DNA of 29,775 bases, taken from positions 1-29,775 of IMG/VR virus record IMGVR_UViG_3300020477_001436. One strand, given 5' to 3'. A program made the translations under genes and the position numbers. Below, in pieces: positions 9,114-25,872 of this stretch. This stretch comes from a virus. The notes under the pieces were generated by a model. It had not been told where the DNA came from. It was given only the letters and a program-made list of their open reading frames with translations, and did no database searches. Positions within the stretch are counted from its first letter, which is position 1, and every line of letters starts with the position of its first letter.

Positions 9114-9693
9114 AATAATCCTTACAGACGTAGACGGCGTATTATTAGAATGGGAGAACCATTTTACTAAATGGATGATATCTCGTGGAGCAAAACTAAA
9201 AAACGAATTTAAAGCAGAATACGATATGCAACGTAGATTTGTTGATGCTACAGAAGATATTAAACTTGCAATAAGAGAATTTAATAAAAGTGCTTGGATG
9301 GGAACACAACCTCCAATGCCAGAATCACAAACGTGGGTAAAACTATTACACGCAGAAGGTTGGACATTTATCCCAATTAGTTCACAAACATCTGACATAC
9401 CTGCACAAGAATTACGTAAAAGAAGACTAGAAGAGCTATTTGGCGAATATGCTTTTTATAACTTTCATATACTAGAAACCGGACAAGACAAAGATAATGT
9501 CCTTGCAGAATTCCACGGAACAGGTTTATGGTGGATTGAAGACAAATGGACCAATGCATTAGCTGGATTAAAGTACGGTCTTAAACCTTTGTTTATAGAT
9601 CATCCATACAATAGAGAATATTCCCACCCCGATATTACCAGAGTAAATAATTGGAAACAGATACACGAGATAGTTTCTAATGATGGTAGATGA
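9097..9693 (+). CDS. HAD-superfamily phosphatase
   Basis: The 198-residue protein has the four haloacid dehalogenase motifs. Motif I is ILTDVDGVLLEW, with Asp11 (nucleophile) and Asp13. Motif II is PISSQ around 94-97, a lysine candidate is Lys132, and motif IV is WIEDKW with Glu148 and Asp149. This points to a magnesium-dependent phosphohydrolase with a small cap between motifs I and II (about 25-80). Possible substrates are nucleotides (as in phage 5'-nucleotidases of this fold) or sugar phosphates, given the glycan genes that follow. Its ATG overlaps the end of uvsY by 17 nt and its own end overlaps the next radical SAM gene by 14 nt, so it bridges the recombination operon and the accessory block. 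Confidence 0.85.
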   Translation: MPTSNRIILTDVDGVLLEWENHFTKWMISRGAKLKNEFKAEYDMQRRFVDATEDIKLAIREFNKSAWMGTQPPMPESQTWVKLLHAEGWTFIPISSQTSDIPAQELRKRRLEELFGEYAFYNFHILETGQDKDNVLAEFHGTGLWWIEDKWTNALAGLKYGLKPLFIDHPYNREYSHPDITRVNNWKQIHEIVSNDGR

Positions 9694-10951
9694 AGAACAA
9701 AAATATTTCCCGATTAAAAAAGATCCTGCTTGTCCTTTAAAATGGAATTGGTCAACAATTTGGACAACAACAGGAGAGACAGCTAGTTGTCATAAATGCA
9801 AAAGAGTACCAATTGACATTGATAAGTTTGACGAATTTCATAACTTACCTCACAAAATAAACGAAAGAAAAATTATGTTAAGTGGCAAATGGCCTACAGT
9901 TGCCAATGGGGGTTCTGGTCATTGCGAAGTTTGTAAAGAAATTGAAGACAATGGTGGATTAAGTGACCGGCAACAAATGAAAGGTATTCCTAATCAAGTG
10001 CCACCTGAATTACGTAATAATCCAACTGCAACTTCTGTTACTCCAAGAATATTTGAACTGTTTGTTTCTAACACTTGCAATCTTCAATGCACATATTGTA
10101 ATACTAGAGATTCAAGTAAAATAAATTTAGAAGCTAAAAAACACGGACCAATTATTTTTCCGGATGGTGAAGCAGTTGGCAGATATCAATATCAAGCACC
10201 TCATCCACAAGCAGTAGGATATTTTAGAAAGTCATTAAAATGGTATGAAGCTAATGGACACAAACTAAAACGATTCCATTTATTAGGCGGAGAACCTTTT
10301 TATATGAAAGAAACTATTCCTGTTTTAGAAACATTAGCAAAAGTTAAAAATAGAAATTTAGAATTTAATATAGTATCAAATATGATGTGTACGCCTGCTA
10401 GATTAGAAATGTATATAGATAAAATTGAACAATTAATTAGAAATAAAAACATTGGTAGATTTGATTTAACAGTTAGTATTGACGGTATTGGACCTGAAGC
10501 AGAGTATTGTAGATCTGGCATGAAATCTGATATAGTTACAAGAAATATGGATTATATTATTAATAAAAAATGGATTATAGTAAATGTAAATTCTGTTATG
10601 ACAAGTCTTACTATTAAACCATATTTAAAATTAATTAGATATGTTAATGAAAAAAGAAAAATTAGAAGGATTGGACAATATTTTGGACAGGATATTGGTA
10701 CACGTGATTTTTTACATCCTATGGCGCAAGGAGGCGAATTTTGGAGAGAAGATATGGAAAAATTAATCAACGAAATAGAGGATTATGATGGAAGATCACA
10801 ATTTCAAGAACACTTAACTGGAATTTGGAAATCGTTTGAAAAATCAAAACCAAACAGGAACTTGATTGATAAATTTAAATTTTATCTAGATGAATTAGAT
10901 AGAAGAAGAAATACTAACTGGAGAAAAATATATCCATACTTGGATATTTAA
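9680..10951 (+). CDS. Radical SAM protein, twitch/SPASM-like
   Basis: The 423-residue enzyme carries the radical SAM motif C133-x3-C137-x2-C140 (NTCNLQCTYCN), followed by a glycine-rich GGEPF (about 203-207) and a TVSIDGIG strand, as in SPASM/twitch enzymes. Before the barrel is a Cys-rich segment: Cys18, Cys37-x2-Cys40 and Cys82-x2-Cys85, in a pattern suited to an auxiliary Fe-S cluster or zinc site. In most relatives the extra cluster is C-terminal, so the N-terminal placement is a point to check. Such enzymes modify peptides, sugars or protein side chains; the substrate is unknown. Start at 9680 or the adjacent ATG at 9683. Coupled to the HAD gene and 12 nt before a glycosyltransferase. 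Confidence 0.87.
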   Translation: MMVDEEQKYFPIKKDPACPLKWNWSTIWTTTGETASCHKCKRVPIDIDKFDEFHNLPHKINERKIMLSGKWPTVANGGSGHCEVCKEIEDNGGLSDRQQMKGIPNQVPPELRNNPTATSVTPRIFELFVSNTCNLQCTYCNTRDSSKINLEAKKHGPIIFPDGEAVGRYQYQAPHPQAVGYFRKSLKWYEANGHKLKRFHLLGGEPFYMKETIPVLETLAKVKNRNLEFNIVSNMMCTPARLEMYIDKIEQLIRNKNIGRFDLTVSIDGIGPEAEYCRSGMKSDIVTRNMDYIINKKWIIVNVNSVMTSLTIKPYLKLIRYVNEKRKIRRIGQYFGQDIGTRDFLHPMAQGGEFWREDMEKLINEIEDYDGRSQFQEHLTGIWKSFEKSKPNRNLIDKFKFYLDELDRRRNTNWRKIYPYLDI

Positions 10952-12399: not shown

Positions 12400-13413
12400 A
12401 TGAAAAAACTTTTTTATTCACCAATTCCGTTATGTTTAGCATTTGAGCCTATTAATTTATGCAACGCAAAATGTTTTTGTTGTCCTTATACTGAATTTAG
12501 TGAGGACAAAACTTTCATTACTCAAAAAATGTCAAAGGAACAAATTACACAATTAATAGAAAACTGGGCACGACTATTAAAAAAACATAAAATTAAACCA
12601 TGGAGCGTCGCTATATTGCCATGGAGATATTCTGATCCTTTAGTAAATCCACACCTCGGTCTTGTTTTAGAATTAGCAGACAAACATCAATTAAATGTTA
12701 GTCTAACTACTAACGCAATTTCGTTTGGTAAACGACAATGTGATTTATTGCAAAAATATAAACATACACTATCAAAAATATTTGTATCAGTAATTGGATT
12801 TACAGAAAAACAAGTATGGGAGCAAATGAAAATTAGTAGAGAAAAAACTTTTCAAAGTCTTGAATTTGTTAGAGACAACTATCCGGATATTTCTAAACTA
12901 ATGGATATAGCAATTAAAAATAGAAATAACACTATTGCGCCAATAGATACAATAGAAGAATATCAAAATAGAACACTAGGTAAAGCTAAAACTAAAGTAA
13001 ATTGGATTAGTAATAGACTAGGTAAAGGGGATGATCAATGGGTACCAAAAGGTAATTGGGCACCCTCTGATAAAAGTTTTGTAAATGGATGTGAATTAAC
13101 TCCAGGAAAAATACTAAATCGTTTAGAAATAATGGTTAGTGGAAGAGCGGCACTTTGTTGTGATATGTCTTATGATCGTAATTTTCCTAAAGAAAAAGTT
13201 GATTATGGTAATGTATTTGAAATCGGTATAGAAGGTGTGTGGGCTAATTTAACTAAAGAACACCAATTAATATATGAACAAAAATATTCAGCTCGTAAAT
13301 TAAAGTTAATTTGTAATGATTGTAATAGAGCCGGTATTAGTAATGGTGGGTTTACAATGGACAAGACAATAAGAATGCAAGAAAGAAATAGAGAGAAGTT
13401 CTTTACAAACTAA
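12400..13413 (+). CDS. Radical SAM protein with SPASM-type C-terminal Cys cluster
   Basis: The 337-residue enzyme has the cluster motif C21-x3-C25-x2-C28 (NLCNAKCFCCPY; an extra Cys27 is inside) close to the N-terminus. It continues with barrel strands such as VSLTTNA. The C-terminal part has Cys231 in NGCEL, Cys253-Cys254 in AALCCDM, and Cys305-x2-Cys308 (ICNDCN), the arrangement of a SPASM domain that binds one or two auxiliary 4Fe-4S clusters. SPASM enzymes oxidise or cross-link peptides, activate sulfatases, or act on sugars as in aminoglycoside pathways. Nothing here identifies the substrate; the surrounding glycan genes favour a sugar or glycoprotein. It is followed after 8 nt by an oxygenase. 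Confidence 0.88.
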   Translation: MKKLFYSPIPLCLAFEPINLCNAKCFCCPYTEFSEDKTFITQKMSKEQITQLIENWARLLKKHKIKPWSVAILPWRYSDPLVNPHLGLVLELADKHQLNVSLTTNAISFGKRQCDLLQKYKHTLSKIFVSVIGFTEKQVWEQMKISREKTFQSLEFVRDNYPDISKLMDIAIKNRNNTIAPIDTIEEYQNRTLGKAKTKVNWISNRLGKGDDQWVPKGNWAPSDKSFVNGCELTPGKILNRLEIMVSGRAALCCDMSYDRNFPKEKVDYGNVFEIGIEGVWANLTKEHQLIYEQKYSARKLKLICNDCNRAGISNGGFTMDKTIRMQERNREKFFTN

Positions 13414-13421
13414 TTAATAAT

Positions 13422-14036
13422 ATGATAGGAAATAGTTTTGTAGACAAGTGTCTTAATACTGAAGTTATCACAACTCCGTGGCCACATCAAGTTATTGAAA
13501 ATACATTTGATAAATCTGTATTTGAAAAATTACAAGCACAATGTATTGAAAAATTAAATTTTCCAACAACACAATTAGTACAAATACATCCAAAAAATTA
13601 TAAAGAATATGGAATAGATTTTTATAACGAAACTTTGAATATTTGTGAAAGTTTATATGAAAATATGAAAGTGTTGTGTGGTGCGTATCCAAAATATAGA
13701 TGGTTTGAAAACCTAGGAGTTAATGTACATATATCTGTTACTCCACCATTGCCGTGGCAGTTTCATATACACCAAGAAGGCATTGAAAAGATTTGGAGTA
13801 GTGTAACATACGTTTCACCAGAAAATAATGTTGGAACTAAAATGTATACAGCAGAAACCAAAGATGCTTTTGTTAAAGAAGCAAAATGGAAACCTAATAG
13901 TACATTTATTTTTTGTGGACAAGAAAGAAAAACTTGGCACTCATACGAAAGCAATGAAAATACTAACCGTATTACGTTTAATCTTTTTATTATGAAATAT
14001 CGGAAGAAGGTAACATTTTTTCCTTTAAAAGATTAA
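13422..14036 (+). CDS. 2-oxoglutarate/Fe(II)-type oxygenase-like protein
   Basis: The 204-residue protein begins with the TPWPHQVIENTFDKSVFEKLQ pattern shared by phage 2-oxoglutarate-dependent oxygenases. Likely iron ligands are His117 and Glu119 (HQE, in PWQFHIHQEG) and His173 (TWHSY), with Arg183 (NRITFNLF) as the 2-oxoglutarate carboxylate contact, a HxE...H...R set with normal spacing. HxE instead of HxD is a variant to note. Such enzymes hydroxylate sugars, lipids, peptides or nucleobases using oxygen. The last 47 nt overlap, tail to tail, the end of the minus-strand glycosyltransferase. A second family member lies at 19595. Confidence 0.72.
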   Translation: MIGNSFVDKCLNTEVITTPWPHQVIENTFDKSVFEKLQAQCIEKLNFPTTQLVQIHPKNYKEYGIDFYNETLNICESLYENMKVLCGAYPKYRWFENLGVNVHISVTPPLPWQFHIHQEGIEKIWSSVTYVSPENNVGTKMYTAETKDAFVKEAKWKPNSTFIFCGQERKTWHSYESNENTNRITFNLFIMKYRKKVTFFPLKD

Positions 14037-14709
14037 CATCTGCTTGTAAATGCCTATCTTTTACTTTACTCCAAGTAAATTTATCTCTGTTACCAATATT
14101 AAGATTTGTTCTAACTTGTTCGCCTGTTTCATCAAACATCTTTTTAGCTTTAAACAGAACAGTTGGCAAATACAAACATCTGTTTAACTTTCTTGCAACT
14201 TTTTGTGTATAACTATCGACAAAAAAATGCCAAAAATACGGTGGAGCAAGATAGCCTAACGTATTAATCCAATTTTTATGTACAGCAAAATGAGCCGCGG
14301 GTAAAGGTTTATCTTCCCATAATTTAACTTCATTTCCTAAATCTCGAGTACCTTTTCTTCTTCCATCGGATGGTACAACCATTAATATCTTATCTTCATA
14401 CTTGTCAAATTGTTCTACAATTAATTGATCCCAATCTTGTGTTTGAATTTGTACATCATCTCCCATTAGCATTACTATATCATAACTTGCTTGACTTGCC
14501 AGTAAATTCCAACTATAACAAGTCGACTGGTTTGGACCAATAGTATAATATTTTTCATCTAATAATTCTTTATATTCTTCTATTGTAGGATCGTCATCAT
14601 TAAGATAAAATAAAATTTCTACATCGTGTTTTGCAAATTTTAGTGCTGTATCAACTAACCTTTTTGCTAATTTTGGACGTCCTCTTGACGGACAACTAAA
14701 TGAAATCAT
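13990..14709 (-). CDS. Glycosyltransferase, GT-A fold (GT2-like)
   Basis: The open frame reaches back to 14727, but the ATG at 14709 (MISFSCPSRGRP) overlaps the upstream stop as ATGA, the arrangement used by its neighbours, so I choose it (239 residues). It opens with the FSCPSRGRPKLA nucleotide-binding strand of GT2-like proteins, then FYLNDDDP, and a metal-binding-type MLMGDDVQ with a hydrophobic strand before it. A Trp/Phe-rich segment (YFWHFFVDSY) may form the acceptor site. It probably adds one sugar in the glycan pathway. It is the last gene of the minus run 18458-13990. Confidence 0.78.
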   Translation of the reverse strand: MISFSCPSRGRPKLAKRLVDTALKFAKHDVEILFYLNDDDPTIEEYKELLDEKYYTIGPNQSTCYSWNLLASQASYDIVMLMGDDVQIQTQDWDQLIVEQFDKYEDKILMVVPSDGRRKGTRDLGNEVKLWEDKPLPAAHFAVHKNWINTLGYLAPPYFWHFFVDSYTQKVARKLNRCLYLPTVLFKAKKMFDETGEQVRTNLNIGNRDKFTWSKVKDRHLQADVNLLKEKMLPSSDIS

Positions 14710-15707
14710 ATTAATTTGTCTTTCCAAGTTTTTGGTGTGTGTTCATTTATAATTTCTAATGGTAAATGATACTGAAACTTTTTAGTTCCTCGTAATCTAA
14801 TATAATCTGCAGTCTTTTTTACTGCTGTTCTTAAATTAGTTGACGTTTTATAACCTAATAACTTACGTGCTTTGTCTGATGAACAAGTTGCAAGTTTAAC
14901 TTCTTGTGGTCTATCTAAATGGTATTCTGGATCTAAATTAATTCCTGTTTCATTAGCACACAACTCAGCAAGTCCATTTATTGTTGTAGACTCTTCGTCT
15001 GGTCCAATGTTTATTACTTGTCCAACTACGTTATCTTGAAAGGCAAGTGCGTTCAAACAATATAAACAATCATCAATATAACTAAAACATCTTTTTTGTT
15101 CACCATCGCCGTATATAATTGGTTGCTTACCTTGTAACATTCTGTTTAACATAATTGACATTACGTTTCTAAATGGGTCATCATACTTCTGTCTTGGGCC
15201 AACTATGTTGTGTGGTACAGCAATAACGTACTCCATTCCGTGTACTTTACATAAATTTTTTAATACATCCTCTCCGGCTTTTTTTGCAATACCGTAAGGA
15301 TCTTGTGGCTTACAATCATAATCTTCTTTAAATGGTGTTTGGTTCTCTCCATATCTTGCCATGCTTGAACAATACACAAAACGTTTTACTTTATTTTTAA
15401 TTGCGGCAGTTACAGTTGCAACTGAAGCCTCAAATATATTTTGTGTTACAAGTACAGGAGAAAAAACTGAAAGTCCTTCATATGCGGTTGCGGCTGTGTG
15501 ATAAACTATATCACACCCTTCCATTGCTTTTGTAAGTTTATCTAAATCTTTACAATCAACTTGATGAAACTCAACGTCTTGCGGAACATTATCTACATAG
15601 CCACCGATCATATTGTCATTACCAGCAACTGTGTGTCCGTTTGCTATCATTAAGTCTGCTAAATGAGAACCTAAAAATCCTGCAACGCCTGTTATAAAAA
15701 TTTTCAT
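14706..15707 (-). CDS. NAD-dependent sugar-nucleotide epimerase/dehydratase
   Basis: The 333-residue extended short-chain dehydrogenase has the NAD site GVAGFLG at 7-13, and Tyr138-x3-Lys142 (YGIAK) with Ser114/Ser115 (YCSSMARYG) forming the catalytic triad. Length and motifs (NIVGPRQKYDDPF, INIGPDEESTTI) match UDP-glucose 4-epimerase/dTDP-glucose dehydratase relatives. The Asp34-Glu-type dehydratase signature is not seen, so an epimerase is more likely. It would supply an activated sugar for the neighbouring transferases. Its end overlaps the GT2-like gene (ATGA) and it starts 10 nt after the sulfotransferase-like gene stop. The exact sugar cannot be told. Confidence 0.9.
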   Translation of the reverse strand: MKIFITGVAGFLGSHLADLMIANGHTVAGNDNMIGGYVDNVPQDVEFHQVDCKDLDKLTKAMEGCDIVYHTAATAYEGLSVFSPVLVTQNIFEASVATVTAAIKNKVKRFVYCSSMARYGENQTPFKEDYDCKPQDPYGIAKKAGEDVLKNLCKVHGMEYVIAVPHNIVGPRQKYDDPFRNVMSIMLNRMLQGKQPIIYGDGEQKRCFSYIDDCLYCLNALAFQDNVVGQVINIGPDEESTTINGLAELCANETGINLDPEYHLDRPQEVKLATCSSDKARKLLGYKTSTNLRTAVKKTADYIRLRGTKKFQYHLPLEIINEHTPKTWKDKLI

Positions 15708-15717
15708 ATAAACCTAT

Positions 15718-16317
15718 TTAAGATGTTGGATAATACTTGGACAAATAATCAAAATCATCTTTATAAACTTTTTTAATCCTTTCTTTTTGTGCTGGTGTTA
15801 ATAATGACGTCCTGTTTTGTCCTTGTCTTAATAATTTTCTTGACCCTGACTCACTTGTATTAAAAATTGGAAAATCTTTTTGTGGTAACGTTGGGTTTTC
15901 TAGTAAGTCTTCAAATCTATAAATTATATCAAACTTAGAACTAGGCTCACATAACCAATATGTTTGTGGCATATAATTTACTCTAATTTCTCCACTTTCG
16001 TATTCATCAATCATATCATCAATGCTTTTCCATCCGTGCTTTTCCGCTGTACTTTTTACTTTAGAAAACCATACCCAACTACTTGCAATTCTATCCATTG
16101 GTTCTCGTATTGTTGTAACTATTTTATAATCAGCATAATTATAATTAATTTTTTTAAGCCTTTCGAGTATACTTGGAAGCCTACTATGCCTTCCAAATTC
16201 GTTTTTTTTTAAAAAAGGTGCTCTAGTATGATGTGCTGGCCATTGATAAGAAAACCAACTTCCGCCTGTTCGCGGAATATGTACATAAATCATTTTTGCT
16301 TCTGGATCTATTTGCAT
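15718..16317 (-). CDS. Sulfotransferase-like protein
   Basis: The 199-residue protein shows the PAPS-binding loop IPRTGGSWF (Pro15 to Phe22) after a first beta strand (MIYVHI), and a second phosphate motif TIREPMDRIASSW (about 69-81), with Arg71 and Ser79 as expected 3'-phosphate contacts. This is the carbohydrate sulfotransferase pattern (Sulfotransfer_2/3 type). It moves sulfate from PAPS to an acceptor hydroxyl, here probably on the phage-directed glycan. The ATG shares bases with the preceding FkbM stop (TAATG read on this strand). It is shorter than most bacterial family members (250-300), so the acceptor part is reduced. Confidence 0.82.
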   Translation of the reverse strand: MQIDPEAKMIYVHIPRTGGSWFSYQWPAHHTRAPFLKKNEFGRHSRLPSILERLKKINYNYADYKIVTTIREPMDRIASSWVWFSKVKSTAEKHGWKSIDDMIDEYESGEIRVNYMPQTYWLCEPSSKFDIIYRFEDLLENPTLPQKDFPIFNTSESGSRKLLRQGQNRTSLLTPAQKERIKKVYKDDFDYLSKYYPTS

Positions 16318-16982
16318 TATACTCTATAATAAACTATATCCGGCCATTGACTCATTAAAATTTTAAAACCTAAATTTTTTACTATATGCTCTTTAACTTC
16401 TTTGTTACTTGATTCGTATTTTTCAGTATTATGATTAAGTTCTACCATAAGAAATTTTACATTAGATTGATTTTCATCATTAAACGTCAAAGTTTTATGA
16501 GCTCCTTTTAATACTTCCATTTCGTATCCTTCTACATCTATTTTAATCATTTCAACATCTTTGTAATTGAAATAATCTATTGTATGCATTGGTATATCGC
16601 CTTTGCCTTTTACTCTAGTTTTCTGTGTTGCTTCTTCTGTTGTTAAAGATATTTCTCCTTCTTCATTTCCTATTGCAAATCTGTGGCTTTTAATTCTATC
16701 ACTAAATCTTGCTACGTTTCTTTCTAAACAAGCAAAGTGTACTCGATCCGGTTCAAATGCATCAATATTCTTAATATATTTTTCCATTGCAACACTCCAA
16801 GTACCACACCAAGCACCTACATCTAATACTCTTTTAAACTTTTTTTTCTGACTATCACAATAGTTTATAAAATTATTCAAACATTTATTCTGTGTAAAAG
16901 GGAGACCTGCTTTCCACTGATCGATATGCTTATCATTTGATGGTACCCAAAAATCGTTTATTTCTTCTATTTGTGTTTTCAT
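16317..16982 (-). CDS. FkbM-family methyltransferase
   Basis: The 221-residue protein contains the S-adenosylmethionine site VLDVGAWCGTW (Asp54, Gly56, Gly60), the acidic loop FEPD near 76-79, and the family signature MIKIDVEGYEMEVLKGA. FkbM proteins O-methylate sugars and other hydroxyl groups in polysaccharides, glycolipids and natural products. The short N-terminal extension lacks a membrane anchor. It overlaps its upstream neighbour as ATGA and its downstream neighbour as TAATG, so it is locked into the minus-strand operon. Likely substrate is a sugar of the glycan built by the adjacent transferases; that is inference. Confidence 0.92.
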   Translation of the reverse strand: MKTQIEEINDFWVPSNDKHIDQWKAGLPFTQNKCLNNFINYCDSQKKKFKRVLDVGAWCGTWSVAMEKYIKNIDAFEPDRVHFACLERNVARFSDRIKSHRFAIGNEEGEISLTTEEATQKTRVKGKGDIPMHTIDYFNYKDVEMIKIDVEGYEMEVLKGAHKTLTFNDENQSNVKFLMVELNHNTEKYESSNKEVKEHIVKNLGFKILMSQWPDIVYYRV

Positions 16983-17791
16983 AGTATACCTTTATCTAGT
17001 AATATCTCAACTGCTTTACCGTTTTCATATTCTTCTGGCGTAAATTGTTGGTATGCTAATGACCATAACCATTCTTCAGCACCAACAAAAAACGGATTTT
17101 CTATATCAGAAATTTCTTGTCCTGAAACTTCTTTTGCAAAACTTTTTTCATCACATATAACAGGTATCCCCATAAGCTGAGCTTCGATTGCCGCTATAGA
17201 ACAACTTGTTACTAAACACCAAGCGTCTTTTAATTGTTCTGCTAACGGAATTGTTGCTTCGCTAGGACCCGATGTTCCTCTACCACGCGGTTTATGTCTT
17301 ACTACTATTGGTCTGTCTGTGTGTACTTTAATCTCTGAAATTGTTTCTTCTAGCCAATTAGGCCTATCTAAATAATTGTGTATACCTTCAGAACTTGGAC
17401 AAACTAAAACATTTTTTCCTTTAAAGTCTGGTGCCTTAACTTTTAATCCAAACTTATCAAACCTATCAGACTTACAATGTTTAATGTATCTTACGTGTAT
17501 TCCATTTTTACAAATACGCCAATAATGATTATCTGGTTTTAAATTATTATTATCAAATCTACCAAAATATGGAGTATCAGTAAACCAAAACTGATGTTTA
17601 CGTGCATCTAACTTTTTAACTAAAGATAAATTATTATTAACAAAACCCCAAAACATTGAATTTGCTAACGGCTCTGTTGCAATACTATTATCATTTACAG
17701 CAACTTGTTCTGGCCAAGACTTTTTAATTCCATTAAAAACTTCCCAGGCTTTACTGTTTGGATTATTAAATGGTGCGTAAATTGTTAGCAT
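16979..17791 (-). CDS. GT-B-like glycosyltransferase, copy A of four
   Basis: The 270-residue protein shares a C-terminal domain with three other proteins in this window (20365, 21167 and 25003). Shared features are an NWLEETISEIKVHTDRPIVV strand-helix, a basic VRHKPRG motif, a conserved WCLVTSCSIAAIEA with Ser in the TS/HSS position, GIPVICDE, and SDIENP...WLWSLAYQQFTPEE at the end. This is the shape of capsule or teichoic-acid-type GT-B enzymes (KpsS/KpsC- or TagF-like), which transfer sugars or polyol phosphates. The N-terminal part is much less conserved between copies. The start overlaps the SGNH gene by 26 nt. Exact donor and acceptor are unknown. Confidence 0.72.
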   Translation of the reverse strand: MLTIYAPFNNPNSKAWEVFNGIKKSWPEQVAVNDNSIATEPLANSMFWGFVNNNLSLVKKLDARKHQFWFTDTPYFGRFDNNNLKPDNHYWRICKNGIHVRYIKHCKSDRFDKFGLKVKAPDFKGKNVLVCPSSEGIHNYLDRPNWLEETISEIKVHTDRPIVVRHKPRGRGTSGPSEATIPLAEQLKDAWCLVTSCSIAAIEAQLMGIPVICDEKSFAKEVSGQEISDIENPFFVGAEEWLWSLAYQQFTPEEYENGKAVEILLDKGIL

Positions 17792-18458
17792 CTATAAATT
17801 CTTTTAATTGTTCTGCCCAACGTTTATGTCCTTCCACGGAAGGATGGGGATCTGCCATATTAGCAACTAATTTATTTTCAAGAATATAATCATAATGTGA
17901 CGTTTCTGGTTTAAAAAATCTTTTTTTATCTATCATATCATATAATGTCCGAACATCTGCATTTTCTATTGGTGTATCTGAAATAGTTTTATACATTACA
18001 TAAGGATATTTGTTTAATTTAAAAAAATTTTGTAAATTAACAGTAGTTTCAATTGATTCATACTGAATTAATTGATCTATATCTAAATTAAGTGTAAAAA
18101 GATGTTTGAAAAAAGTTCTAGATGGTGTATCTTTTTGTGGGCTAAATGTTTTCCATGCTGACTCTAAATCAGGAAATTTATATTTTTTATACCCGTCATT
18201 AGTGGGAAAATCAAACCTTGAGCCTGATGTTATACCAATTACAAAGAAACATTTTTTTGCTAACTCCGGATTTCTTTGGCACCAAATTTTAGTTGTAATA
18301 CTAACTCTTTTATTTCCTCGTCCACCTCCTGCTAAATGTCCTCCTCTTGCTAGTCCCATTAATTTTTCTAATTCTTTTCCAGCATGAGTCATTATACCGT
18401 CTTTAGAACGATACGTAAGAAACGAACAACCGTTTATAAAAATATGAGTAGGTTCCAT
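17766..18458 (-). CDS. SGNH/GDSL hydrolase-like protein
   Basis: The 230-residue protein has the two catalytic blocks of SGNH hydrolases. Block I is HIFINGCSF with Ser12 as nucleophile in place of GDS; the Cys before Ser is a common variant in glycan-modifying members. Block V is DPHPSVEGH, with Asp203 and His205 as acid and base. Such enzymes remove or transfer acetyl groups on sugars. The middle is rich in basic and aromatic residues. Gly-rich GGHLAGGGRGN (about 39-49) may be the oxyanion loop. No signal peptide is visible, so it acts inside the cell. It opens the minus-strand operon and diverges from the GT61-like gene across a 25-nt spacer. Confidence 0.75.
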   Translation of the reverse strand: MEPTHIFINGCSFLTYRSKDGIMTHAGKELEKLMGLARGGHLAGGGRGNKRVSITTKIWCQRNPELAKKCFFVIGITSGSRFDFPTNDGYKKYKFPDLESAWKTFSPQKDTPSRTFFKHLFTLNLDIDQLIQYESIETTVNLQNFFKLNKYPYVMYKTISDTPIENADVRTLYDMIDKKRFFKPETSHYDYILENKLVANMADPHPSVEGHKRWAEQLKEFIDANNLRTI

Positions 18459-18483
18459 AAAATAATATAATTAATTATACAAA
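18459..18483. promoter_or_regulatory. 25-nt divergent promoter region
   Basis: The spacer between the two outward-facing starts (minus 18458, plus 18484) is almost pure A/T. It contains TATAAT on the plus strand at 18466-18471 and TATAAT on the minus strand at 18479-18474. The matching -35 positions fall inside the coding starts and are not good matches. Both transcripts would have leaders under 15 nt. The two boxes are so close that they should compete. Confidence 0.45.
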
Positions 18484-19575
18484 ATGCAGACAGTGAAAAA
18501 CATTACCAATATTAAGTATTTTTTAGATCGCTTTGAAACAGTGGATCATGAGTATGGATTTGATGTAAAATATCACGAGAAAGCACCTAAAACACATTTT
18601 CATAGTTTGCCGACGTTTGTTGCTGAATTTAGAAACTGCTCAGTCAACACTTTGCCTTGTTTAATTACTGAGGACAGACACCTTATAACTAACAACATCT
18701 GGCCTTTATTACACAAATACAAACACAAACCAAAAAAGACACACGGCTTATGGGATAATTGGACAGAGCCAACTATTCAAATTACTATGCCTCCAATTAC
18801 AAAACAACTTGATGGTGACAAATTTGTATGGTTACCTATAGACAAAGAAAGTGCAAATAATCCATGGCACATTTGGATTGACGTTATATCTAAATTTAGA
18901 TTAATAGAAAAAAGAGGTACAACAACTTTTAATAATTTTATCTATGTGTTAAGCAATCCTAGTGCTTACTTTGATAAGGTTGTTAAAGAAATGTTTCCTG
19001 ATATAAAATATTATGTAATGCCAGAAGGCGAAACTTGGCGTTTCCAACATTTAATTGTTCCGTCAATGAGTAATCATGATGATGGCGTAACAACACCTCA
19101 TCTTGCTCCATGGTTAAGACATTTTAAAGGATTGTTTGGATTCAAAGGATTAACTCCACATAGAAAAATAATTGTACTACGTCCTGGAGCAAAAACGAGA
19201 AAAATGATTAACTCGGACGAACTGATACTAGCATTAAAAGGTTGGGAAACAGTTACTTTAGAAAACATGACTATAAAAGAACAATTTAAAACTTTTGCAG
19301 AAGCAACACACGTTCTTGCGGCTCATGGTGCAGGACTAACAAATTTGCTTTGGTGCAAGGCTGGTACAAAAGTAATTGAAATACAAGATCCTAATATGTT
19401 ACACAAAAAAGTTTATCCTTTATTATCACATCATTTACAATTAAAACACGAAATATATCTTGCAAAAACAATACCAATACAATATAACAAAACAAGACCT
19501 AAAGGTGTTAAAAGAATTAATGATTTAATAAATTTTGAAGTTAATATACCAGATTTAATTAGACATTTAGATTGA
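18484..19575 (+). CDS. Glycosyltransferase, GT61-like (DUF563)
   Basis: The 363-residue protein matches the GT61/DUF563 pattern. It has RKIIVLRPGAKTRKMIN (a nucleotide-sugar-site strand), a long helix (FKTFAEATHVLAAHGAGLTN) in which the AHGAGL signature is diagnostic, and then WCKAGTKVIEIQ. Family members transfer xylose or related sugars onto glycans, and bacterial members are found in polysaccharide clusters. An N-terminal domain of about 160 residues with many Trp/His/Lys precedes the catalytic part. The start at 18484 is the first ATG after the divergent spacer; no Shine-Dalgarno is seen. Next gene begins 19 nt downstream. Confidence 0.85.
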   Translation: MQTVKNITNIKYFLDRFETVDHEYGFDVKYHEKAPKTHFHSLPTFVAEFRNCSVNTLPCLITEDRHLITNNIWPLLHKYKHKPKKTHGLWDNWTEPTIQITMPPITKQLDGDKFVWLPIDKESANNPWHIWIDVISKFRLIEKRGTTTFNNFIYVLSNPSAYFDKVVKEMFPDIKYYVMPEGETWRFQHLIVPSMSNHDDGVTTPHLAPWLRHFKGLFGFKGLTPHRKIIVLRPGAKTRKMINSDELILALKGWETVTLENMTIKEQFKTFAEATHVLAAHGAGLTNLLWCKAGTKVIEIQDPNMLHKKVYPLLSHHLQLKHEIYLAKTIPIQYNKTRPKGVKRINDLINFEVNIPDLIRHLD

Positions 19576-19594
19576 TACAAAGTATAATAAAAAT

Positions 19595-20368
19595 ATGTAT
19601 TCGTTGCTACAGAAAAAACCAAAACTTATAACAGATCCATATCCACACGTTGTAATAGAAGAAGCTTTACCGTGGGAGTTATATGAGAAGCTAGAAGCAG
19701 AATTTCCAGAAAAAACTTTACTAGCAACTGAACCATTTGACAACGGTATATGTTATAGAATGAAATCAGATGTTTTGTTACAACCAACATTTGAATCTAC
19801 CCTATGGAGAGAATTTGCAAACTATCATACATCACCTGAATGGTTTATGGAAGTATACGAATTGTTTAAACCATGGCTAGAAGATAAACCTAAACTAACA
19901 AGTTTGCTACCTAACCTTAAAGAAAACTTAGGTGCAAGAGGATGGGCAGGCAAAGAAATTAATTTATGGAGTGATTGTCAAGTTGTTATGCACAAACCAA
20001 TAACAGAAAAAACATCTAGAACAGCACACATAGACAATCCAATGGAAATGTTTGCTGGATTGTTGTATATGCCTTATAAAAATGATACAAGCACTGGCGG
20101 TAACTTTCAAATACATTCAACAAAAAATAATATAAGAAAAGTAGATATGAACGGTGGTAGACAAGTATATGCTGAGGATTTAGGTACTGTACATACCACA
20201 GTACCATACAAAAGAAATACGTTTGTAATGTTTTGTAATGCAAATCCTAATACAGTACACAGTGTATCAAACAGAATTAATCCAACTATGTACAGAAGAA
20301 GTGTAAACATTATTGCAGAGTTTAAAAGGAATTATGCAAAAATGTATAACGTTGAGGAAATAAGATGA
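19595..20368 (+). CDS. 2-oxoglutarate/Fe(II) oxygenase
   Basis: The 257-residue protein has a canonical His-x-Asp...His...Arg iron and 2-oxoglutarate site: His145-Ile-Asp147 in RTAHIDNPM, His222 in NTVHSVS and Arg234/235 in TMYRRSVNI. The segment from GLLYMPYKND through GGNFQIH is the jelly-roll core, close to prolyl-4-hydroxylase-type phage proteins. The N-terminal opening (DPYPHVVIEEALPWELYEKL) resembles that of the oxygenase at 13422, so both may share an ancestor. It hydroxylates an unidentified substrate, perhaps a sugar or a glycoprotein side chain. The stop overlaps the next gene as ATGA. A short AT-rich gap with TATAAT (within GTATAATAAAA) precedes its ATG. Confidence 0.85.
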   Translation: MYSLLQKKPKLITDPYPHVVIEEALPWELYEKLEAEFPEKTLLATEPFDNGICYRMKSDVLLQPTFESTLWREFANYHTSPEWFMEVYELFKPWLEDKPKLTSLLPNLKENLGARGWAGKEINLWSDCQVVMHKPITEKTSRTAHIDNPMEMFAGLLYMPYKNDTSTGGNFQIHSTKNNIRKVDMNGGRQVYAEDLGTVHTTVPYKRNTFVMFCNANPNTVHSVSNRINPTMYRRSVNIIAEFKRNYAKMYNVEEIR

Positions 20369-21177
20369 ACTATGCAGTAAAAACAGGTAGAGCTGTTACT
20401 GAAAAATACGTAGAAGCGGCCGCAAGAGGTATGGATGCAAAAATTGTTTCACACAAGGAAGTAACAACATCAACTGATTGTGATAAAGTTGTATTCATGG
20501 GTGTATTAAGAGGCACTCACCTTGTATATAGATGGGCAGAAATGAAAGGAATTGATTTTTATTATATTGACCGACCATATTGGGGCGAAAGTAGAGGTAC
20601 TCCTTATTGGATGAGATGTTCTAAAAATCAACACGTTAAAACATTTAACGACAACAGGCCAGATGACAGATTTAAAAAAACATTTAAAGAAGTAGTTAAA
20701 CCATTCCATAAAAATGGCAAATATGTTTTGGTTGTTCCGCCAAGTCATGCCATGGCAAATATGTTTGATGGCAAAAATTGGTTGGATAATACATTAAAAA
20801 TTTTAAAAGAAAATACAGATAGAGAAATAGTTATTAGAGAAAAACCATTTAATCCAGACACAATAATAGATGATCAAGGAAGATTTCAACCAGGAACTAG
20901 TAAAAATAAACAACCAGCTAAACCATTTGAATGGGAAAAAGTTCACGCAGTAGTAACATTTAATAGTTCAATTACAATTAAAGCATTAACTAACGGTGTT
21001 CCTTGCTTTACTAATTTTGAAAATCCTTGTTTACCTATATGCGAAACAGATTTTGCAAAAATAGAAACACCAATATATGAAGACCCTAGACCCGTATTTT
21101 ATTCACTTGCTTATGGACAATTTACACAAGAAGAATTTAGGAATGGTTATGCTATGGAGATATTAGATGGACGTTGA
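20365..21177 (+). CDS. GT-B-like glycosyltransferase, copy B of four
   Basis: Of the four related proteins (see 16979, 21167, 25003), this 270-residue copy has a shared C-terminal domain with NWLDNTLKILKENTDREIVI, REKP in place of the basic RPHPR motif, HAVVTFNSSITIKAL and the closing YEDPRPVFYSLAYGQFTQEEF. It lacks the His of RPHP found in copies C and D; copy A has RHKPR. The N-terminal part begins directly with MNYAVKTGRAV and contains YYIDRPYWG, similar to the TDTPYFG of copy A, so A and B may be the closest pair. The ATG overlaps the oxygenase stop (ATGA), and the gene end overlaps copy C by 11 nt. Confidence 0.72.
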   Translation: MNYAVKTGRAVTEKYVEAAARGMDAKIVSHKEVTTSTDCDKVVFMGVLRGTHLVYRWAEMKGIDFYYIDRPYWGESRGTPYWMRCSKNQHVKTFNDNRPDDRFKKTFKEVVKPFHKNGKYVLVVPPSHAMANMFDGKNWLDNTLKILKENTDREIVIREKPFNPDTIIDDQGRFQPGTSKNKQPAKPFEWEKVHAVVTFNSSITIKALTNGVPCFTNFENPCLPICETDFAKIETPIYEDPRPVFYSLAYGQFTQEEFRNGYAMEILDGR

Positions 21178-22150
21178 AATATTTAGAAGAACAGTAAAGG
21201 ATAGACGTAGAGGTGCTAGTTGGGAACTTCTACAACATATGGCGACAGGAATTAAAGCTGTTGGTGATAATCCAATTATTGTAGACGAACACAGAACTGG
21301 CCCTACTGTTGAAAACGAAATGGAACCAACTGCTCCAATTGGTTGTATGTTTGGTTATGGTGGCGACAAACAAATGCACCACACAAAAGGACGTAGACGA
21401 GAATTAGTTGAACGTGCAAAGAAAAAAGGCATTTACATTATAACATTTGATGGTGGTATACTATCTAGTTTTGGAAATACTATAACACATCCTAAACATC
21501 ATTGGCGGGTAGCATTATATTCTCCTATGAGAAATGGAAACTTTTTAAGTGACAATTCTCCACCCGATAGATGGGAGATGATGAAAAAATTATGGAATGT
21601 AAAATATGAACCATGGAGAAAATCTAATCCAAACGACCCAATATTATTTGTATTACAACCACAAGATAATTGGAGTATGAACGACCTAGACCCAATTGAT
21701 TGGTTCAATGATGTATATAAAAAATTACGACCATTAACTAAAAGAAAATTTCAAATTCGTCCACACCCAAATCATATGGCCGCTATGGAAAAAAGAAAAA
21801 ATGAATTTCCTAAAGACTGTGAACTTATAATAGGACAAAAATTTTTTACTGGCGATGAGAAAAAGTACTATAGATTCGACTTTCAAAAAGCAATAACTAA
21901 CGTTCATGCTGTTATATCTCACAACTCTACTGCTACCATTGATTCCTGCATCCGTGGCAGGCCTACCTTTTGTACATCAGATCTTGCTATTGCTTGGCCT
22001 GTTGCAAACACTGTTTTAGAAGATATTGAAAATCCAAAATACCCCGATAGAACACAATGGGTTTATGACTTAGGTTATAAACAATGGACAGAAGAAGAAA
22101 TTAAAAACGGTACTGTATTCAAACGATTTAAAGAGAGATTAAAATTATAG
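21167..22150 (+). CDS. GT-B-like glycosyltransferase, copy C of four
   Basis: This is the longest copy at 327 residues. It shares the [21 protein letters not shown] strand-helix, the RPHPN motif, [22 protein letters not shown] (Ser/Thr-rich nucleotide-contact loop) and [26 protein letters not shown] at the C-terminus with the other copies. The extra N-terminal length includes TPIG-like [13 protein letters not shown] and a Rossmann-like strand IYIITFDGG (about residues 90-97). The combination of RPHP and SHNS/T loops matches capsule or lipopolysaccharide-type GT-B enzymes. Its TAG stop shares the G with the GTG start of the ferredoxin gene (TAGTG). Substrate is unknown. Confidence 0.74.
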
Positions 22151-22473
22151 TGACTTATGTTGTTAACGACAAATGTATTATGTGTAAGCACACCGACTGC
22201 GTTGAAGTATGTCCGGTTGATTGTTTTTACGAAGGAGAAAATATGCTTGTCATTAATCCAGACGAGTGTATTGATTGTGGAGTATGTGAACCTGAATGTC
22301 CAGAAGATGCTATTGAACCTGATACAAATCCTGACACAGCAAAGTGGGTTGAGTTTAATGGCAAATGGTCTAAACAATGGGCAGTACTGGCAACTAAAAA
22401 AGATTCTCTCGATCCGGATAACAAACACAGGAACGAAGAAGGAAAACTAGAAAAATATTTTAAGGACAAATAA
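22150..22473 (+). CDS. fdxA: 7Fe ferredoxin (3Fe-4S plus 4Fe-4S), FdxA type
   Basis: The 107-residue protein, starting with GTG at 22150, carries cysteines at 9, 12, 17, 21, 25, 40, 43, 46 and 50. After subtracting the initiator Met, these are exactly the positions of Azotobacter ferredoxin I. There, 8, 16 and 49 hold the 3Fe-4S cluster, 20, 39, 42 and 45 hold the 4Fe-4S cluster, and 11 and 24 are free. The stretches [15 protein letters not shown] and [16 protein letters not shown], plus the tail ending EGKLEKYF, match alphaproteobacterial FdxA. It is a low-potential electron carrier. It sits between a glycosyltransferase and asnB with overlapping codons on both sides, so it was kept as part of the operon. 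It is probably host-derived and may feed the radical SAM enzymes. Confidence 0.94.
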
Positions 22474-24143
22474 TGTGTGGCATATACGGAATAACAGCAA
22501 GAGATTCTGAATTTATAAACCAGTTTATTAACAAATGTAAACATAGAGGACCTGATGGACAAAGTGTTTGGCACGACGCTAGTGTTACATTAGGACATAA
22601 TCTTTTAAGCATCATGGCTGATCCGGGTGTATCTAAACAACCATGGCGTACGCCTAAAGGCAATATATTAACTTACAATGGTGAAATATTTAATTACTAC
22701 GAACTTAAAAAGAAATATAAAAACTTTAAAGACACAACAGGTTGCGATACAGAACTTTTAGCATGGGGTCTAGATACATATGGGTTAAACTTTATAGACG
22801 AAATAGATTCGATGCACGGATTTGCATACTACGATAGAAATAAAAAACAAATTATATTAAGCAGAGATCACGCAGGTATAAAACCTGTGTACTATGCAGA
22901 AATAAAAGAAGGATTAGTGTTTGGTTCTGAAATAAAAGGTATGTTGGACAAGGTTCCTAATTCACGTTGTGTTGATAATTTAGCAATAAGTTGTTTAGCA
23001 ACTACAGGTATTAATGCTACACGTAATACTATGTTTAGTGGAATTAAAAAATTATTAGCAGGTGAAACACTAATTTATGATATAGCAAATAAAAGAATTA
23101 GAGAGTGGAAAAGAATTTTAATAAAGCCAAACAGTAATAGAGATTTTTATCCAGAAGAGTTTAAAATAATGGGTAATAACACAGTTAAAATGTGTAGTAT
23201 TGGGAAAAGAAAAATTGGTGTATTCTTAAGTGGCGGACTAGATTCAAGTTTAGTTGCATTTGAACTTAAAAATATAACGGGAGATGCAAACACTTTTACT
23301 AACAGAATGAAACCAAATATAATTCGTGATGAAGACTATAACGAAGACGCCGACTGTGCCAAAGTGTTGGCTCTTGAAAACAATTTTAATCATACTGAAG
23401 TAACAATTACTCCTAAAATAATAAAAGACTATTGGAATGATTCGATTTATTTTATGGAACAACCTGCATATAATCCAAGTCTTGCCATGTATTGTTATAC
23501 TAATAAAGTATTACACGACAAAGGTATAGTAGTAACAATGGCTGGTGATATGGGAGATGAAATACTAGGCGGGTATCCAAAGTATTGGAAACTAAAAAGA
23601 GATTTGCCAAGCAATGACAAAAGACCAAAAAATTGGGGTGATATTATCAACAGATGGACGAGAAGAATAAAACGGCCAATATTAGGTGCCGAATGGAACT
23701 TGGATTCACATTTATTTCTAGATAGAAATACTATAGGTGAGGAACTACACAAATGTTATCCAGATGAGTTATGGAACCCCGAAGATCCTGTAGGTTCATA
23801 TATGGCATTAGATTGTGTTACTCAAGTACCAGAAGAATTTTTTAATCGAAACGACAAATACGGTATGGCATATGGAATGGAAGGACGTTTTCCGTTAGCA
23901 ACTAAAATGTTTATGCAATATTGTATGAACATACATAGTAATTTTAAAATTGGGCCAGATAAACATGAAACAAAACTATTAACAAAAATTGCTTATAAAC
24001 CATGGTTACCTAGAAAAATTATTAGAAAAATGAAAACTGGCTGGACTGTACCATTACGAGAATGGCGGAAAATACATAGCAAAGCAGAGATACCAACAAT
24101 GATAATAAAAGATTGGAAAAAAACTTATAAAATAAAAAAATGA
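22473..24143 (+). CDS. asnB: Glutamine-dependent asparagine synthetase homologue (AsnB)
   Basis: The 556-residue protein (E. coli AsnB has 554) has Cys2 as the N-terminal nucleophile (MCGIYGI) of class II glutamine amidotransferases. The glutaminase domain runs to about 200, and a synthetase domain carries the PP-loop SGGLDSS at 253-259 plus MAGDMGDEILGGYPKYW. The chemistry is ATP-dependent amidation of a carboxylate with ammonia from glutamine: aspartate in true AsnB, but uronic-acid sugars in O-antigen homologues such as WbpS. Placement inside a glycan cluster favours the second role, while nitrogen metabolism is the alternative. The TAATG junction with fdxA and the 4-nt overlap with the next glycosyltransferase show operon placement. 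Confidence 0.93.
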   Translation: MCGIYGITARDSEFINQFINKCKHRGPDGQSVWHDASVTLGHNLLSIMADPGVSKQPWRTPKGNILTYNGEIFNYYELKKKYKNFKDTTGCDTELLAWGLDTYGLNFIDEIDSMHGFAYYDRNKKQIILSRDHAGIKPVYYAEIKEGLVFGSEIKGMLDKVPNSRCVDNLAISCLATTGINATRNTMFSGIKKLLAGETLIYDIANKRIREWKRILIKPNSNRDFYPEEFKIMGNNTVKMCSIGKRKIGVFLSGGLDSSLVAFELKNITGDANTFTNRMKPNIIRDEDYNEDADCAKVLALENNFNHTEVTITPKIIKDYWNDSIYFMEQPAYNPSLAMYCYTNKVLHDKGIVVTMAGDMGDEILGGYPKYWKLKRDLPSNDKRPKNWGDIINRWTRRIKRPILGAEWNLDSHLFLDRNTIGEELHKCYPDELWNPEDPVGSYMALDCVTQVPEEFFNRNDKYGMAYGMEGRFPLATKMFMQYCMNIHSNFKIGPDKHETKLLTKIAYKPWLPRKIIRKMKTGWTVPLREWRKIHSKAEIPTMIIKDWKKTYKIKK

Positions 24144-25006
24144 AGTATAAAATTATAACAACATTTAAACCTAATGATTGGAACAAATATGCAAAACGCA
24201 TGGTACAATCTGTACTAGATAAATGGCCTAATGCTGATACAACTGTCTACTATCAACAGCCTCATAAGCCTGATTTTAATCAAAATGTTACTTGGGTTGA
24301 TATAGATAAAGCAAATCCAGACTTACATAAATTTAGAGAAAAATATAAAAACGATCCGGTTGCTATAGGTAAACTAAACGAAATACCCGGAGGTGTAAGA
24401 CGCTCTCCACGTTTAGCAACAGAAGGTGGACTTGATGCAAAGAAAGACTCATACCTATGGAACGCAGTTAAGTTTAGCTACAAAGTATCTTGTGTTACAC
24501 ACGCAGTAAAAACATATAATGATTATGATTATGTAATTTGGATTGACGACGATACCTATACATTTAGAAATATACCAATGGAATTTATAGAAAGTATATG
24601 TCCTAATGATACATTGGTTACGTACCTTGGCAGAGAAAATGATAAGGGCAGTAACAAATATCCTGAATGTGGACTTGTTTGTTATAATATTAAGCACCCG
24701 CTTGTACAAAACTTTGTTACAGATTGGGAAAACTTATATACGTCAGCAAATATATTTGACTTACTCGAGTGGCACGACTCGTATGTGTTCTGGCATATGA
24801 CTAAAGAATACAAACAAAAACACAATGCAAAAGTACACGATATTGGTTATGCAAAAGATGTTAAAGGACATCACGTATTTGTAAATAGTGAACTTGGTCA
24901 GTACATAGATCATTTTAAAGGTGACAGAAAAGAAGATAAAAGATCACGTACTGAAGATTTAAGAAAAACACCAAAACTATTAAAAATTGATTATTGGAAA
25001 CAATGA
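24140..25006 (+). CDS. Glycosyltransferase-like protein, GT-A fold
   Basis: The 288-residue protein starts with a short Rossmann-like strand (YKIITTFKPNDW) and has a hydrophobic strand ending in Asp136-Asp137-Asp138 (YVIWIDDDTYTF), the metal-binding triad of GT-A enzymes. Later it has ECGLVCYNIKHP and a WHDSYVFWHM segment with acidic and aromatic residues suitable for sugar binding. No membrane anchor is present. I cannot assign a CAZy family with certainty; it belongs to a group seen in marine phages, from memory. ATGA overlap with asnB upstream and ATGA overlap with the next gene at 25003 make it part of the same run. Confidence 0.75.
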   Translation: MKYKIITTFKPNDWNKYAKRMVQSVLDKWPNADTTVYYQQPHKPDFNQNVTWVDIDKANPDLHKFREKYKNDPVAIGKLNEIPGGVRRSPRLATEGGLDAKKDSYLWNAVKFSYKVSCVTHAVKTYNDYDYVIWIDDDTYTFRNIPMEFIESICPNDTLVTYLGRENDKGSNKYPECGLVCYNIKHPLVQNFVTDWENLYTSANIFDLLEWHDSYVFWHMTKEYKQKHNAKVHDIGYAKDVKGHHVFVNSELGQYIDHFKGDRKEDKRSRTEDLRKTPKLLKIDYWKQ

Positions 25007-25872
25007 AAGTAAGTGTTTATACAAAATTTGGCCCAAATAATTCTAAAAAAGTTTTTGAGGCTTTTATAGAAAGTTTAGAAAAAGCAGGAGATGAAATTCA
25101 ATTAAACTGTAATGGTAACAGTGATGTTTCTGTAATATGGTCAGTATTATGGCAAGGAAGAATGGTTGGCAATAGAAAAATTTGGGAAGAAAGCCGACAA
25201 AAAAACAAACCAGTTGTTGTTCTTGAAGTTGGTGGTATAAAAAGAAACGAAACTTTTAAAGTAGGAATTAATGGAATAAACAGAGAGGCAGATTTTGCTA
25301 ATCAAAATGTTGACAGTGAACGTTGGAAAAAATTTAATATAGAACTAAAACCGTGGGCACAAACAGGTGAGGAAATTATAATTTGTGGGCAACACCACAA
25401 TAGCCACCAATGGAGAAACAATCCAAAAATGCCAAATTGGTTTGAACAACAAATTATTGAAATAAGAAAACATACTGATAGACCTATTGTGATTAGACCG
25501 CATCCAAGAAATAGACTAGGTGTAGATACTGCAAAATTTAAAAATGTAAAAGTTGTTCATCCTATTAAAGATCAAAACACATACGATGACACAGACTTTA
25601 ATCAAAAATTAAAAAATGCTTGGGCAGTAGTTAACCACTCTAGTAATCCTGCTATGCAATCTGTGTTTAATGGTATACCTGTATTTGTATCTGAAGCTAG
25701 TTTGAGCTATGATGTTGGTAATTCGTCTTTAACAAATATTAATAATCCAAAAATGCCTGATAGACAAACATGGGCAAATCGTTTAGCATATACTGAATGG
25801 ACAACTGAAGAAATAAGACAAGGGTTACCATGGGCAAGAATTAAGAACAGATTGAAGGAGAAATATTTGTAA
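25003..25872 (+). CDS. GT-B-like glycosyltransferase, copy D of four
   Basis: The open frame extends to 24994, but the ATG at 25003 (MKVSVYTKFG) overlaps the preceding stop as ATGA and is the better start (289 residues). It is the fourth member of the group and has the clearest motifs: MPNWFEQQIIEIRKHTDRPI, VIRPHPRNR, AWAVVNHSSNPAMQS, GIPVFVSE and NNPKMPDRQTWANRLAYTEW. Its PDRQTW/PDRTQW ending matches copy C (21167), so C and D are probably a closer pair. It ends TAATG with the next gene, whose start has an AAGGAG upstream at about 25855-25860. A polysaccharide-type transferase with unknown substrate. Confidence 0.74.
   Translation: MKVSVYTKFGPNNSKKVFEAFIESLEKAGDEIQLNCNGNSDVSVIWSVLWQGRMVGNRKIWEESRQKNKPVVVLEVGGIKRNETFKVGINGINREADFANQNVDSERWKKFNIELKPWAQTGEEIIICGQHHNSHQWRNNPKMPNWFEQQIIEIRKHTDRPIVIRPHPRNRLGVDTAKFKNVKVVHPIKDQNTYDDTDFNQKLKNAWAVVNHSSNPAMQSVFNGIPVFVSEASLSYDVGNSSLTNINNPKMPDRQTWANRLAYTEWTTEEIRQGLPWARIKNRLKEKYL

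Follow-up and report, generated by a model that had tools for sequence, protein, structure and literature searches.

A core 7Fe-type ferredoxin in a lineage of uncultivated marine T4-like phages and its candidate redox partners

Uncultivated marine T4-like phages commonly carry the gene for the 7Fe-type ferredoxin FdxA, which in one phage lineage is a core gene, located next to the clamp loader and a thymidylate synthase. We describe it from a 29,775-base IMG/VR virus record (the window, meaning the whole stretch of DNA analyzed). The reading that we marginally favor is that phage FdxA is a general small low-potential one-electron carrier whose clients vary among phages; we infer both the electron source and the clients. 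Its direct basis is the identity of the gene, the conservation of its ligands, the existence of a phage-only clade, the varied neighborhoods of the gene, and the absence of coupling to radical SAM genes.

Identity, distribution, and phylogeny of phage FdxA

The fdxA open reading frame (22150-22473, + strand) has a GTG start and encodes 107 amino acids. Its product clears the cut-off of NCBIfam FdxA_Protbact (NF045490; 145.4 bits vs 135, E = 5.9e-43) in an alignment covering residues 1-101, carries a C-terminal DUF3470 domain (PF11953; 28.8 bits vs a cut-off of 23.2), and matches structures of Azotobacter vinelandii ferredoxin I (AvFdI) with E values of about 1e-30. These matches bear out a sequence-only reading of the window in which the gene was called a 7Fe ferredoxin with nine cysteines aligned exactly to those of Azotobacter ferredoxin I: Cys 9, 12, 17, 21, 25, 40, 43, 46, and 50 (initiator counted) fall at the AvFdI positions, although only seven of them are ligands. 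The AvFdI cluster ligands (residues 8, 16, and 49 together with 20, 39, 42, and 45) account for seven of the nine aligned cysteines, so the other two are dispensable for the clusters.

All seven ligand cysteines of AvFdI and the proline that follows are present in the window protein; P22 and P51 are kept in all FdxA relatives compared, and the nine cysteines are invariant in 81/81 viral and 91/91 cellular FdxA. The gene is under strong purifying selection where this is measurable (dN/dS of 0.02-0.12, from pairs with unsaturated dS only). The open reading frame most likely encodes a functional 7Fe FdxA, with cluster occupancy predicted from these ligands. An AlphaFold model of the product was too poor to serve as evidence (pLDDT 56) and was set aside.

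The window protein shares with AvFdI and proteobacterial FdxA (NF045490) its length, the DUF3470 tail, the nine cysteines, the aspartate by the [3Fe-4S] site, and alignment over the full length; it differs in being phage-encoded, in belonging to a phage-only clade, and in the loop that follows the second cluster motif, which is shorter. PHROG 8732, a group of phage proteins of unknown function, also matches it over the full length (E = 9e-34); this is the same family, already gathered from phages with neither function nor context assigned. The gene is truly viral, because the window is a virus record with a T4-like terminase, gp32, and UvsX. The terminase is nearest (54%) to those of jumbo T4-like phages such as PA5oct; no tRNA that might point to a host was found in the window.

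At least 596 relatives of FdxA were found in IMG/VR, which makes this a frequent gene among uncultivated viruses; no convincing isolate phage with FdxA was found in INPHARED. The matches there in Acinetobacter phage MD-2021a and Microcystis phage MaAM05 were rejected as their contigs look bacterial (mutS, pgi, ilvD, and icd); the four remaining matches are short unannotated faecal records. Three records deposited as phage (CAKLQH020000001, CAKLQF020000001, and MW495066; loci L322, L323, and L324) are probably mislabelled, their FdxA regions resembling a bacterial chromosome.

In a tree of 172 FdxA sequences, 50 viral proteins, that of the window among them, group in a phage-only clade (SH-aLRT 99) next to the FdxA of Rhodobacterales; the remaining viral proteins are placed among roseobacter or Pelagibacter FdxA. 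This scatter indicates that phages acquired the gene more than once; many forks are unresolved because the alignment has only 112 columns. The aspartate beside the [3Fe-4S] cluster (position 16; Asp15 of AvFdI) is found in 91/91 cellular FdxA. It is replaced by serine (15 proteins) or threonine (13) in 28/81 viral FdxA, all of them in the phage-only clade (loci L020-L057 and others), and is retained in the window (D16).

PetF, the ferredoxin of cyanophages, has the plant-type 2Fe-2S fold and is unrelated to FdxA. The two are alike in being phage-encoded ferredoxins but differ in type (2Fe-2S vs 7Fe), as the sequence-only reading had maintained in setting the window gene apart from the cyanophage kind. 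PetF is encoded in 44/153 cyanophage genomes (PMC10452541). Ferredoxin-type genes have been reported from Lake Baikal Nitrospirota phage VP_99 (PMC7678222) and from viruses of the Ross Ice Shelf (PMC10721903) and the ETNP oxygen minimum zone (PMC8940887), like the window from uncultivated viruses; the parts of these accounts available to us describe no 7Fe FdxA type, phage-only clade, or clamp-loader position. Marine T4-like viruses with up to 12 radical SAM genes, grx, paaD, and an A-type carrier (PMC5332604) resemble the window in combining Fe-S and radical SAM genes, but ferredoxin is nowhere mentioned in that paper. Viral ferredoxins and T4-like viruses with Fe-S and radical SAM genes are thus already known; no account of the phage-only FdxA clade or of its core position was found in the open-access literature.

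Gene surroundings of fdxA

Neighbors were counted in 61 non-redundant FdxA-centered loci with 3 kb available on each side. A clamp-loader subunit lies within 3 kb of fdxA in 44/61 loci and a thymidylate synthase in 40/61; Fe-S assembly genes lie within this distance in 6/61, as do two radical SAM families (6/61). Conversely, FdxA is present in 75 of the 79 loci centered on one clamp-loader lineage, and the four exceptions are all shorter than 15 kb. Genomes of other lineages that carry gp44 without FdxA (G082, G085, and G211) were also found.

The thymidylate synthases beside phage fdxA are mutually exclusive: ThyX (29/61) and ThyA (11/61) never occur together. ThyX was considered as a client of FdxA and rejected; by itself it is an insufficient explanation, because ThyA, which needs no reductant, also adjoins fdxA. 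Since neither the clamp loader nor thymidylate synthase is a known ferredoxin user, the position of the gene may mirror shared ancestry and not function.

In the window itself, fdxA is preceded by a gene for a glycosyltransferase (GT)-like protein (21167-22150, + strand), assigned by family clustering to a family of four paralogs, the others lying at 16979-17791, 20365-21177, and 24994-25872; the paralog at 16979 has a weak match, below cut-off, to the putative glycosyltransferase family DUF6716. The GTG start of fdxA shares one base with the TAG stop of this upstream gene (TAGTG). Downstream is a gene for an asparagine synthase-like amidotransferase (AsnB; 22473-24143, + strand; TIGR01536 above cut-off), whose start overlaps the stop of fdxA by one base (TAATG) in the window and in two related loci, L007 and L020. 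The order GT-like gene, fdxA, AsnB recurs in these two loci, where FdxA is 77% and 73% identical to that of the window.

A carbohydrate island spans 13990-25872 of the window and includes an epimerase, a sulfotransferase, an FkbM methyltransferase, a GT61 glycosyltransferase, AsnB, and the four putative-glycosyltransferase paralogs. The fdxA gene sits inside this island, outside any radical SAM operon, and is probably co-translated there with the glycan and AsnB genes.

Alternative roles: Fe-S assembly, radical SAM, and redox sensing

The strongest specific rival for the window is Fe-S cluster assembly. On this reading, FdxA would combine with phage SufE, a phage DUF59 protein (PF01883, SufT/PaaD-like), and the host SUF system in a phage Fe-S supply module, giving electrons for, or holding, clusters destined for phage Fe-S enzymes, radical SAM enzymes included. 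Profile searches in all six frames put sufE no more than 651 nt from fdxA in 16 loci, before it in some and after it in others; these include four of the closest kin of the window, where the two genes adjoin (L003, L004, L006, and L008); DUF59 lies within about 600 nt of fdxA in seven loci and is present in the synteny sister of the window (G006). Fe-S assembly genes together with many radical SAM genes are known from marine T4-like genomes (PMC5332604), and viral sufE has been described (PMC8940887). However, sufE or DUF59 comes within 3 kb of fdxA in only 6 of the 61 non-redundant loci, neither was found in the window, and enrichment of Fe-S genes is weak (SufE in four FdxA-bearing vs one FdxA-less records). 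Overall, we consider such a supply module unlikely.

The sequence-only reading had proposed that FdxA is a dedicated donor for the three radical SAM enzymes of the window; as such it would reduce their [4Fe-4S] cluster with no call on host flavodoxin or ferredoxin. The three genes themselves are confirmed: all match PF04055 above cut-off and have an intact CxxxCxxC motif. The first (4289-5800, + strand; E = 1e-19; CVRRCTFC) has weak similarity to B12-binding radical SAM families; the second (9680-10951, + strand; CNLQCTYC) is of the twitch-domain type (NF033640, 205.9 bits vs a cut-off of 170); the third (12400-13413, + strand; E = 1.5e-8) has the motif CNAKCFCC. They lie 16.4, 11.2, and 8.7 kb upstream of fdxA, respectively.

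Co-occurrence was surveyed in two sets of records, one comparing FdxA-bearing records with records picked by terminase or UvsX and one of further records picked by FdxA, clamp loader, UvsW, and gp32. Among the 155 T4-like virus records left after removal of near-copies, which are mostly fragments and whose FdxA-less members come partly from other lineages, radical SAM genes occur in 41/89 FdxA-bearing and 30/66 FdxA-less records (odds ratio 1.02; length-adjusted 0.74, bootstrap confidence interval 0.35-1.49), with no co-occurrence beyond background, an outcome that the sequence-only reading had itself named as a refutation. In records of at least 90 kb the counts are 10/15 and 5/6. FdxA occurs with no radical SAM match in G267 (237 kb), G259 (142 kb), and G024 (133 kb), and radical SAM genes occur without FdxA in G211, G082, G085, and G216; FdxA-less records of 134-219 kb hold four to six of them (four in G211, 219 kb). 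Nor are radical SAM genes closer to fdxA than chance predicts (within 3 kb in 6/20 vs 5.0 expected).

A few observations favor the donor proposal. The window combines fdxA with three intact radical SAM genes, in L003 and L008 about 1-2 kb separates fdxA from a twitch-type gene upstream of it, and the large records richest in radical SAM genes bear FdxA (21 genes in G258, 19 in G266, and 11 in G270). Radical SAM genes are present in each of the six records of the window clade that measure about 30 kb or more (three in the window, five in G001, four in G002, one in G003, two in G005, and three in G006; p = 0.07), but the members share ancestry and the result is not significant (p = 0.14 with the window left out); a link limited to this clade may exist. 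With an odds ratio near one, no proximity, and at least 8.7 kb between fdxA and the radical SAM genes of the window, the survey gives no sign that FdxA exists for these enzymes, and we regard a dedicated donor as improbable.

Some T4-like records are unusually rich in radical SAM genes: G258 (record of L422) has its 21 in 170 kb and G266 (record of L485) its 19 in 257 kb, and G077 (record of L204) has 11 radical SAM matches in 26 kb.

A self-contained phage system serving a host with few reductants, as the sequence-only reading envisaged, also finds no backing. The NAD_binding_1-type ferredoxin reductase domain (PF00175) was found in 0/80 virus records including the window, all of them fragments. 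FdxA scores above cut-off in 94/118 genomes from the family of a Pelagibacterales metagenome-assembled genome (MAG), so candidate hosts do not lack it. A 2Fe-2S ferredoxin as a substitute in FdxA-less phages was rejected: Fer2 was detected in 1/80 records, and that record is FdxA-bearing.

A very improbable reading makes FdxA a redox or iron-stress protein and not a donor, its [3Fe-4S] cluster serving to sense or buffer redox conditions inside the infected cell. Loss of the neighboring aspartate in 28 members of the phage-only clade hints at altered redox behavior, and A. vinelandii FdI regulates FPR, but the window protein keeps D16 and the loci compared showed no consistent link of fdxA to a regulator or stress gene.

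A variable electron carrier and a possible chain to bilin reductase

Under the general-carrier reading, these T4-like marine phages would owe fdxA to an ancestor that took it from an alphaproteobacterium and then kept it. The carrier would be made during infection and reduced by the ferredoxin-NADP reductase of the host, or by a phage-encoded FPR in the few phages that have one, and would pass electrons to whichever ferredoxin-dependent reactions a given phage needs. Fe-S cluster assembly is the candidate client where sufE or DUF59 adjoins fdxA; heme oxygenase and the bilin reductase PcyX are candidates in other phages, and radical SAM enzymes or nucleotide metabolism may be further ones.

Among the products of the FdxA-bearing record G267 (IMGVR_UViG_3300021959_006017) are a ferredoxin-NADP reductase of the FPR type (2bgi is its best solved match, E = 1e-59), PcyX (match 5owg, E = 3e-80), heme oxygenase, and a class I ribonucleotide reductase. 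The record may hold a complete phage electron chain to bilin reductase (L634:7928-8698 and L637:3529-4757). Among the large records scanned, PcyX occurs in 4/10 with FdxA and 0/6 without it, a difference that is not significant (p = 0.23); phage FPR was found in two scanned records, G267 and G285, both with FdxA, numbers too small for significance. Some records are common, by contig name, to the FdxA/clamp-loader and PcyX scans (e.g., IMGVR_UViG_3300020446_001892). The kin of the window (G001, G002, G005, and G006), which are fragments, showed no PcyX, heme oxygenase, or FPR, so the bilin chain does not directly explain the window gene.

We tentatively suggest, as a possibility short of our favored reading, that FdxA is an old core protein of a major marine T4-like lineage, shaped by phage-specific pressures that include repeated loss of the aspartate by the [3Fe-4S] cluster, and that in some members it may be the middle link of a phage-encoded path from NADPH through FPR and FdxA to heme oxygenase and PcyX. 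PcyX is a ferredoxin-dependent enzyme of marine viruses whose purpose has been described as unclear (PMC11480375). Phage FdxA is a concrete candidate donor for this viral bilin reductase; if the proposal is true, the phage chain would provide the donor so far missing when viruses make phycoerythrobilin in non-photosynthetic hosts. More broadly, a one-off link between a ferredoxin and radical SAM enzymes is replaced by a general, testable one, a bacterial-type 7Fe ferredoxin that is fixed across a large set of marine phages and shows no coupling to radical SAM genes; the client candidates to which it points are Fe-S assembly, bilin reductase and heme oxygenase, and nucleotide metabolism.
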